A stretch of 64,000 nucleotides of DNA, from positions 1 to 64,000 of the forward strand of contig LBOO01000002.1 of NCBI GenBank assembly GCA_000989565.1. Reading direction: 5' to 3'. The notes below the pieces were generated by a model. That model ran no database searches and had not been told where the DNA came from. It saw only the letters and a program-made list of their open reading frames with translations. Shown in pieces: positions 33,998 to 63,039 of this stretch (positions are counted from its first letter, which is position 1; each line of letters starts with the position of its first letter). The translations under genes and the position numbers were made by a program. The stretch comes from Candidatus Peregrinibacteria bacterium GW2011_GWA2_33_10. Its GTDB lineage: Bacteria > Patescibacteriota > Gracilibacteria > UBA1369 > GWC2-33-13.

Positions 33998-34465
33998 TTA
34001 AATTTTATTTAAAATTTGATAAACCCCGATCCCGAAAGCAGTAGAGACATTCAGCGACTCCTTTTTTCCAAGCATTGGAATGTGCAGCACCTTATCTGAA
34101 ATATTTAATACAGCCTCGGAAATACCTTCAATTTCATTCCCTACAATTATAGCTATCGGTGATTTATATTTTTTAATATCTAAAATATTCCTCGAATCAG
34201 CGGTTTTCTCTAATGCGATTATTTCATATCCTCCTTTTTGTAGTGTACTAATAACGCTTATAATATCAGGATCGTGTACCCATTCAACATATTCCTCAGC
34301 CCCTAAGGCTGTTTTTGTGATTTCTTTTCGAGGTGGAATCCCCGTATACCCGCAGAGATATATTCTTTCAATATTAGAGGCATCCGCTGTTCTGAAAATC
34401 GCCCCAACATTATGAAGAGAGCGAATATTTTCTAATATTGCCACTATTGGTGTTTTTGAAGTCAT
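33998..34465 (-). CDS. TrmH/SpoU-family RNA methyltransferase
   Basis: ILENIRSLHNVGAIFRTADASNIERIYLCGYT..IIVGNEIEGISEAVLN..HIPMLGKKESLNVSTAFGIGVY; start likely MTSKTP. Confidence 0.92.
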   Translation of the reverse strand: MTSKTPIVAILENIRSLHNVGAIFRTADASNIERIYLCGYTGIPPRKEITKTALGAEEYVEWVHDPDIISVISTLQKGGYEIIALEKTADSRNILDIKKYKSPIAIIVGNEIEGISEAVLNISDKVLHIPMLGKKESLNVSTAFGIGVYQILNKI

Positions 34466-34479
34466 AAATTTAAAAATAA

Positions 34480-34713
34480 TAGACAAACTCAATGTCTGGA
34501 CAATCATATCGATTTGTATTTTTTTTGTCTATTGTTTTTTTCGATCAAAAACATCTAAGTATAAACTGAATTTAACAATATCGTCAGTAGACATGGTGGA
34601 AAAATTTGTCTACATATTTGTCTATAAAAATTGTCTTCTTTGTTCTTGAAAAAAGTTTAATTATAAGGTAATAATATAGATAGACACTATTTTTAATAGA
34701 CAATATATGTCTA
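34480..34713. promoter_or_regulatory. TAGACA/TGTCTA motif array in divergent intergenic region
   Basis: Exact hexamers at 34480, 34526, 34588, 34607, 34619, 34681, 34697, 34708; near matches TGTCTGGACA (34493) and TGTCTT (34632). Confidence 0.75.
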
Positions 34714-35366
34714 AAGTAAAAGAATACACGTTAACCAGAGAACGCGCAGCCTCGATTATACAAGTTTCAACCAGAACATTGGACAGGTATATTCGACAAA
34801 ATATATTAACGAGTCTAAAGATTGGAGCAAAAGTATATCTGTCTGATCAAGAAATCTCAAATTTTATCAAATTTCGAAAGAAAACTCCTTTGGAATCTAC
34901 GTCAAATTTGAAATCAAAGGATAAAGAGCCACAGAAAAAGAATATTTATATTAAAGACTTGGTCGGTAAACATCTTGAGCGGCAAAAAGATCCATTAGAA
35001 GAGAAAAAAGAAGTTTTGACTAGTCATGATGAATATACAGTATATCAAAAACTCTATCATGAATTAGCTGTTCAGGTTAAAGAAAATCAAAAAAGATTGG
35101 AAGGCGCCAATTATAAGGTTGGGCAATTAGAGGCAAAACTGGAAATCGTTAATCAACATTACATCTCGTTGGCGGATCATCATAAATACCTTAATGTTCT
35201 AAAAGTAAACGAAATGGAGTTAAACACAAAAAATTATCAAAGCAAATTGCTGATTAAAGATATAGAAGATAAATTTAAAAACGAAAAAGTAAATAAGCAA
35301 ATAATCATCGCCATTTTGTTTTTTTTGTTGTTGTTGCAGCCTATATTTTGGCTGATTTTAAAGTAG
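34707..35366 (+). CDS. HTH (MerR/excisionase-like) + coiled-coil + C-terminal TM protein
   Basis: YTLTRERAASIIQVSTRTLDRYIRQNILTSLKIGAKVYLSDQEISNFI; heptad-rich middle; C-terminal IIIAILFFLLLLQPIFWLILK. Confidence 0.75.
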   Translation: MSKVKEYTLTRERAASIIQVSTRTLDRYIRQNILTSLKIGAKVYLSDQEISNFIKFRKKTPLESTSNLKSKDKEPQKKNIYIKDLVGKHLERQKDPLEEKKEVLTSHDEYTVYQKLYHELAVQVKENQKRLEGANYKVGQLEAKLEIVNQHYISLADHHKYLNVLKVNEMELNTKNYQSKLLIKDIEDKFKNEKVNKQIIIAILFFLLLLQPIFWLILK

Positions 35367-62259: not shown

Positions 62260-62976
62260 TTAAGCAATTACATGTTTCTCATACACTCCAATCAAATGCA
62301 CCTTGCTCTTTTTAAAAAACTTATCCATCAAAAACTCCAAAAAACACGCGAATCTAAAAAGAATCTCATTAAAACTAATATAGCTTGGATCCCCATTCAA
62401 AATTAAATCCCTTTTCTTAAATCCAATATTCGAAAGTGTCCTATTAATCGTCCTCACAGAATTAATCCTATAAAACTTTGAAAAAGTATCATTCTCCTGC
62501 CGATTATAAAGCCTTTTTGTAAAAAAATCGTGAAATCTTTCAGGAATTAACCTTATTATCCAAACATTATAATTCCATGAATTCGGAGTTAAAAACATTA
62601 CTTTCCCTGAAGGCTTCAAAACTCGATAAATTTCCTTAAATACCTTTTCCGGATCTTCAATGTGCTCCAATGTCCACGCACTAACAACCAAATCAAAAAA
62701 ATTATCTTGAAATGGCAATTTTTCTGCTTTCCCCGGAAATTTATTTTTAATAAAAGAATTCTTATCAAGCGCCCTCTGATCCGGATCAATTCCATATGTT
62801 TCATTTGTCTTAGCATAGACATTCTTCATATATTCATTATGTCCACAACCAATGTCCAGAATCTTACTCCCTTTCATCAAAAACCCATCAATAATTTGTC
62901 TATAGACACTCTGACTATCCTCCCATCCTTTATTCTTTTGTCTATATTTCTCCCGATAAAATTCCTGTTTATTCAT
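62260..62976 (-). CDS. class I SAM-dependent methyltransferase
   Basis: GSKILDIGCGHNEYMKNV..LPFQDNFFDLVVSAWTLEHIEDPEKVFKEIYRVLKPSGKVMFLTPN. Confidence 0.9.
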   Translation of the reverse strand: MNKQEFYREKYRQKNKGWEDSQSVYRQIIDGFLMKGSKILDIGCGHNEYMKNVYAKTNETYGIDPDQRALDKNSFIKNKFPGKAEKLPFQDNFFDLVVSAWTLEHIEDPEKVFKEIYRVLKPSGKVMFLTPNSWNYNVWIIRLIPERFHDFFTKRLYNRQENDTFSKFYRINSVRTINRTLSNIGFKKRDLILNGDPSYISFNEILFRFACFLEFLMDKFFKKSKVHLIGVYEKHVIA

Positions 62977-63039
62977 ACAATTTTTTAAAATGTCTATCGC
63001 ATAATAACATTTTTATCCAACTTTAGACAAAAATGTCTG
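62897..63039. promoter_or_regulatory. second TGTCTA/TAGACA cluster at the 5' end of the methyltransferase gene
   Basis: TGTCTATAGACA (62897-62908), TGTCTA 62939 and 62991, TAGACA 63024, TGTCTG 63034. Confidence 0.5.

Follow-up and report, generated by a model that had tools for sequence, protein, structure and literature searches.

The repeats of the staphylococcal plasmid pSK1 lie directly upstream of par, and Par represses its own gene. This protein acts on sequence repeats as a single-protein plasmid partition system, and it combines a MerR-type winged helix-turn-helix (wHTH) domain with a coiled coil and a putative C-terminal membrane-binding element (PMC11500499). RacA of Bacillus subtilis also contains a MerR-like wHTH and a coiled coil; bound to repeated centromere-like sites, it anchors DNA to the membrane through DivIVA (PMC6593407). 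RocS of Streptococcus pneumoniae is composed of an N-terminal wHTH, a coiled coil and a C-terminal membrane element; it connects the chromosome and the membrane in a host with an incomplete ParABS system and acts on the nucleoid (PMC11500499). The regulator BldC binds direct repeats cooperatively in a head-to-tail manner (PMC5859096).

The locus described here is located in a 64,000-nucleotide stretch of the Peregrinibacteria genome GW2011_GWA2_33_10 (the window). It shares sequence features with single-protein partition or anchor systems, namely a repeat array beside the gene and a wHTH, a coiled coil and a membrane element in one protein. In its working it appears to resemble RacA, RocS and pSK1 Par, yet it lies outside those sequence families. 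We know of no mechanism for the positioning and segregation of the chromosome in uncultivated, small-genome CPR bacteria, and the part of the literature that was searched contained no publication on such a system in Peregrinibacteria or Gracilibacteria.

Compared with the described systems, this family exhibits several differences. pSK1 Par is plasmid-borne, with an amphipathic helix and a DUF536 domain, whereas the present family is chromosomal, has an integral transmembrane (TM) segment and carries part of its array within its own coding sequence (CDS). RocS contains DUF536 and a MinD-like amphipathic helix; the family here has neither, and has a TM helix and an array at its own gene. DUF536 was absent in all 25 members searched and in a permissive scan of one of them. 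RacA has scattered ram sites that are densest around the origin (PMC6593407), whereas the array here occupies one locus, and the membrane contact of RacA is indirect, in contrast to the predicted TM segment of this family. The RacA site is also GC-rich (PMC5859096), unlike TAGACA. BldC, Xis and RdfS are small and soluble, lack a coiled coil or TM segment and have another sequence specificity, although the head-to-tail mode of BldC would suit the 10–11 bp direct spacing of the TAGACA array. TubY of type III plasmid partition is likewise unlike this family: it works with TubZ and TubR, has an amphipathic tail and, in the part of its source that was available, is described without an array at its own gene.

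A dense TAGACA array at the start of the gene

The non-coding and neighbouring features of the locus are as follows.

33998–34465, minus strand: SpoU/TrmH-family methyltransferase gene, the divergent neighbour outside the unit (ORF open to 34507; the partner varies among relatives)
34480–34713, no strand: core TAGACA/TGTCTA array of eight exact sites in the divergent intergenic region and the first codons, defined by site positions, genome-wide significance and conservation upstream of homologues
34497–34502, plus strand: near-match TGGACA (TSGACA variants are likewise enriched upstream in relatives)
34646–34675, plus strand: promoter-like element TTGAAA-18-AATAAT, a consensus match only, preceding the last three array sites
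34780–34798, plus strand: TGGACA (34780) and TCGACA (34793), the array continuing within the HTH-coding sequence (in-CDS excess over synonymous expectation in relatives)

The exact hexamers start at 34480, 34526, 34588, 34607, 34619, 34681, 34697 and 34708 of the 64-kb window, and the count of eight given in the initial annotation is therefore right. Seven of these sites lie in the ~240-bp divergent region and one spans codons 1–3 of the 219-aa ORF, corresponding to eight sites per 234 bp. The same annotation had put the expectation at less than one, which is an understatement. With TAGACA at the frequency of the whole genome (278 in 1,226,948 bases, 97% of the assembly), a 240-bp stretch would be expected to contain 0.054 sites; the probability of at least eight sites is 1.8e-15, or ~1e-11 once all windows are allowed for. 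This array is the densest TAGACA cluster of the genome, followed by one of six sites at 62816–63029 and a third with three. A scan of all hexamers identified comparably significant clusters only in one stretch of N and at a handful of other places; each of the latter was marked by several hexamers that overlap, as repeats would be. No Rfam family was found at the locus, and the only structured RNA in the window was one tRNA.

Spacings between adjacent exact sites in the window include 11, 12, 16 and 19 bp. Of the distances close to a helical turn that had been proposed, those of 11, 12 and 16 bp are present between adjacent sites, whereas that of 13 bp occurs solely in the coding part. Taken alone, the spacing within the window is weak evidence for a helical-turn arrangement, which becomes clear only in the relatives.

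A winged HTH protein with a predicted C-terminal membrane segment

The array adjoins a gene with the following parts.

34707–35366, plus strand: HTH–coiled-coil–TM protein of 219 aa, single copy in the genome
34725–34883, plus strand: winged HTH, residues 7–59, with a BldC/RacA/Xis/Par-like fold (AlphaFold2 and fold matches)
34893–35021, plus strand: disordered linker, residues 63–105 (pLDDT < 50), which in many relatives encodes further sites
35025–35360, plus strand: single long helix, residues 107–218, containing the most conserved block and the C-terminal TM segment
35301–35357, plus strand: C-terminal TM segment, residues 199–217 (Q211, P212 and W215 nearly invariant)

The proposed layout of an HTH, a coiled coil and a C-terminal TM helix was upheld by AlphaFold2 and by hydropathy in 55 homologues. 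The AlphaFold2 model, which was built on a 55-sequence alignment, has a pLDDT of 84 overall and mostly >90 in the winged HTH. The protein contains no effector domain; the wHTH is followed by one helix that runs to the TM end. A C-terminal hydrophobic, TM-like segment is present in 55/55 homologues, with a median of 3 residues behind it and, on average, a net positive charge ahead of it. Because this segment is close to the terminus and preceded by positive charge, the HTH is most likely cytoplasmic. Conservation is highest at residues 129–160 of the helix (consensus RLExANYRVGQLEAQ...), where the mean majority identity is 0.79 compared with 0.57 in the wHTH. This block and the near-invariant Q211, P212 and W215 suggest self- or partner contact and a specific interaction with the membrane. 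Within the HTH, R23, T24, D26 and R27 are invariant or nearly so.

Foldseek neighbours of the isolated domain are the BldC–DNA and RacA–DNA complexes, Xis, RdfS and pSK1 Par, with probabilities of 0.99–1.00; the E-values of these fold matches are all >0.001, as expected for a 60-residue domain. BldC (6ama) is the best match, with a TM-score of 0.77 on the target. RacA (5i44) ranks second (probability 1.00, TM-score 0.65/0.61 for the isolated domain), and the DNA-binding domain of pSK1 Par (8csh) is also among the matches (probability 0.99, TM-score 0.63/0.70). The resemblance to RacA in the initial annotation thus holds for the wHTH fold, but this fold is common to BldC, Xis and Par and is not specific to RacA. 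At the sequence level the resemblance is hardly visible: the NCBIfam RacA model NF009649 is matched by 3/25 members, weakly, with a best E of 0.0014, and for the window protein itself no NCBIfam model reaches E <= 0.01. RacA (5i44/5i41) is one of only two PDB sequence-profile matches, at E = 0.13.

Gene and array are conserved together

A profile search (E < 1e-15) located the gene in 81 of 89 genomes from the order, with rare exceptions in single copy, as in GW2011_GWA2_33_10. Homologues also occur in some other families of the class, with none in the 18 genomes of families f19 and f21; the remaining matches in the phylum are weak and largely confined to the HTH. A plasmid or phage gene was ruled out, as tblastn found no match to the protein in plasmids or phages and the PHROGs matches are weak and of the excisionase type.

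Fifty-six loci were collected by an alignment-based search of genome contigs (a single-protein query alone gave none). TAGACA is the most enriched hexamer of all in the 300 bp upstream of these genes, with 262 sites observed and 6.1 expected (43-fold). Neither of two conditions that the initial annotation had set for refutation, homologues without arrays and clusters equally common elsewhere, was borne out. In the 51 upstream intergenic regions, 259 sites were counted (21/kb), with at least three in 39 of the regions; the 208 other intergenic regions of these loci gave 16 sites (0.42/kb), and none had three or more. Chance clustering was ruled out by the counts in the window, the genome-wide significance and this comparison with other intergenic regions. 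The relatives share only ~30–35% protein identity with the window copy, and their site is unchanged. Given the same motif at the same gene throughout the order and the near-invariant HTH residues, the HTH protein is very probably the binder of TAGACA.

In the relatives, adjacent upstream sites are most often 9–12 bp apart (140 pairs, 60 of them at exactly 11). The same orientation prevails, with direct spacings peaking at 10–11 bp and inverted pairs at 2, 6 and 17 bp. The 10–11 bp peak is confined to adjacent upstream spacings; over all pair distances the 10.5-bp periodicity is not clean, and the strongest period tested is 11.5–12 with coding sites pooled.

The array is not equally rich everywhere. 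Some families (f4 and short-helix, f7-like members) have merely 2–6 sites, which counts against a function in anchoring. Six loci (L036, L037, L039, L046, L054 and L086) encode a shorter helix (176–188 aa) and have few upstream sites, and several short-helix members contain TGTCGACA/TAGACA within the codons of the recognition helix (VSTRTLDR). Extra small TAGACA clusters of 3–7 sites are located in the flanks of a few relatives, for example inside an FG-GAP gene; relative to the gene start they lie at -922..-753 (L044), -860..-638 (L050) and +4398..+4448 (L047).

The array extends into the coding sequence

Within the CDS of the family, 230 TAGACA sites were observed against 40.6 predicted by synonymous codon shuffling with local usage, compared with 140 against 113 in neighbouring genes. 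At most loci the sites run to about codon 100 (~300 bp into the CDS), with nearly none past codon 110, and at array-rich loci 43% of the linker codons share bases with a site. The TAGACA sites give the linker a high content of D, V, S and M (tripeptides VDN, VDM, MST and MSI). The reverse explanation, in which low complexity of the protein (VD/MST repeats) causes the sites in the CDS, was excluded, since the excess persists against synonymous shuffling and part of the array is non-coding. At the level of sequence, the excess indicates that selection acts on the DNA within the CDS, and not only on the promoter or the peptide. With binding sites that shape the encoded linker, the gene would, unusually, double as the DNA target of the protein that it encodes.

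The total number of sites is independent of the upstream gap (rho 0.14, P 0.34), and the upstream count rises with it (rho 0.80). Loci with a long intergenic space have 10.7 upstream and 2.0 CDS sites (12.7 in total); those with a short one have 5.1 and 9.2 (14.3 in total). The CDS counts differ between the two groups (P 1.5e-5), whereas the totals are alike (P = 0.26). Since the total is conserved and the split between upstream and CDS follows the gap, site number seems to matter more than exact place. A conserved total with flexible position is more readily reconciled with an array that must accommodate a given number of molecules than with an operator whose geometry is fixed. Together with the spread into the CDS, it is the feature hardest to explain by a simple operator at the promoter.

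The divergent partner changes

The immediate divergent partner changes between families, and the array remains beside the HTH gene. The array might nevertheless be the operator of the divergent neighbour (S-layer/FG-GAP, TrmH, GH18 or YbeY), under the control of the HTH protein. The divergent layout is common, and an FG-GAP/SLH surface protein is the partner at 35 of the 56 named loci, SpoU/TrmH, GH18 and YbeY accounting for 7, 5 and 3. However, the same array is kept with at least four different divergent partners and enters the CDS of the HTH gene, and clusters of at least three sites are found on the divergent side in few loci, which makes such an operator improbable.

Downstream, the relatives carry two DUF881 proteins, glutamate racemase and GMP synthase. 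In the window the upstream partner is TrmH, and the downstream neighbour is an ion-channel-like gene. A tandem pair of convergent DUF881 proteins is located next to the gene, downstream, at 34/56 loci. DUF881 proteins of other bacteria are frequently encoded near cell-division genes, and a functional link between this pair and the HTH gene is possible.

A second cluster and the genome-wide distribution of sites

One further cluster, absent from the account of the initial annotation, was identified in the window.

62816–63029, no strand: second TAGACA cluster, six exact sites and two TGTCCA, covering the 5´ end of a methyltransferase ORF (62260–62976, minus strand) and the DNA upstream of it; the sole other dense cluster found in the genome

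It includes a perfect palindrome, TGTCTATAGACA (62897–62908). In the related genome G052, the only relative available as a single contig (998,424 bp), there is one dense cluster, which is this locus, with 20 TNGACA sites within 380 bp; the runner-up has 4. One dense cluster in G052 and two in the genome of the window suggest that the protein's own gene is its main target.

The dispersed sites, ~280 per genome, raise another explanation, in which a general nucleoid-organising or occlusion protein of the Noc/RocS kind uses single TAGACA sites and the array at its own gene is merely autoregulatory. In favour of this, RocS is built in the same way (wHTH, coiled coil and membrane element) and exerts its effect on the nucleoid (PMC11500499). 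However, TAGACA is at or below expectation genome-wide (286 against ~335, scaled from the shuffled expectation of the window), and its spacing elsewhere looks unremarkable, so that we give this explanation little credence.

Autoregulation, as the initial annotation proposed, is plausible. The sites surround a promoter-like element (34646–34675) and the start codon, and autorepression is accordingly a likely property of the protein. Whether regulation is also its whole function is a separate matter. The protein could be a membrane-bound one-component regulator that senses the membrane or envelope through its TM motif, controls itself homeostatically, perhaps with a few other genes such as the methyltransferase (62260–62976), and does not position the chromosome. 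The sites flank and follow the promoter-like element and cover the start codon, the near-invariant Q-P-W of the TM segment could sense the membrane state, and the neighbours are of the envelope type (SLH/FG-GAP, DUF881 and glutamate racemase). The second cluster also lies at another gene start in the same genome. In overlying the start of a methyltransferase gene it resembles an ordinary regulatory target, which counts against anchoring. Conversely, no output is apparent for a regulator with hardly any target besides its own gene, the sites extend ~300 bp into the CDS with a total conserved whatever the promoter space, and G052 has no second cluster. We consider pure regulation rather unlikely. 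Anchoring is the better guess, given that the number of sites is conserved, that they spread into the CDS, that a sensor domain is lacking and that the gene is near-universal.

A model of self-contained DNA–membrane anchoring

The array, its conservation, its near-uniqueness per genome and the layout of the protein are established by sequence comparison and prediction. On this basis we propose, with roughly even confidence for and against, that the locus is a self-contained DNA–membrane anchor of Peregrinibacteria, in which self-coating, self-repression and attachment of the locus to the membrane are combined. The winged HTH would recognise TAGACA (TNGACA) and bind neighbouring sites about one helical turn apart, covering the promoter and the 5´ coding region of its own gene with protein. 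The extended helix would oligomerise and bridge DNA and membrane, with the C-terminal TM segment holding the protein in the latter. Two outcomes are envisaged: the gene itself would be repressed, and a membrane-attached nucleoprotein complex would form at one fixed chromosomal locus, positioning or segregating the chromosome in the mode of a single-protein partition system. With the protein in the membrane and its own gene as the main target, DNA binding would draw the locus to the membrane; that this tethering is the main output is a proposition that could fall either way.

ParB and chromosomal position

No ParB_N domain was found in the genome of the window nor in 131 of the 153 genomes of the class, and the protein itself matches HTH families, not ParB. 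Another anchoring route would therefore not be redundant in these bacteria. Replacement of ParB by the HTH protein was considered and dropped, as ParB is rare in the class regardless of the HTH gene; its absence is general, including families without the gene, and forms no replacement pattern. Most of the Peregrinibacteria tested have no ParB, and a near-universal single-copy gene with a conserved array provides a direct candidate with a defined motif and protein. The broadest form of the anchoring model is an order-wide, ParB-independent chromosome anchor or centromere. The centromere would form part of the promoter and CDS of the very integral membrane protein that binds it, and the sites would dictate amino acids of the linker. 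This extension is tentative, and we lean slightly against it.

The position of the array also bears on anchoring. In G052 it lies ~419 kb from dnaA on the 998-kb contig, in which neither a skew switch nor a DnaA-box cluster marks oriC. If the origin is near dnaA, such a position is unlike that of parS or the RacA ram sites and would count against anchoring.

The G052 contig (PGYE01000001.1, L123-L172) showed a negative GC skew, from -0.09 to -0.45, in all 100 10-kb windows, with genes on both strands and no replichore switch. It appears as if replicated in one direction, which would be an exception for Peregrinibacteria unless the assembly is at fault. Skew patterns without a switch have been described for some Microgenomates, whereas the curves of Peregrinibacteria are given as typical (PMC7143001). 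Among five further contigs (G041:C3, G013:C6, G063:C6, G016:C2 and G043:C1; L243-L262), four have no sustained change of GC-skew sign near dnaA. In G043:C1, the skew passes from about zero or negative to positive 25–30 kb from dnaA.
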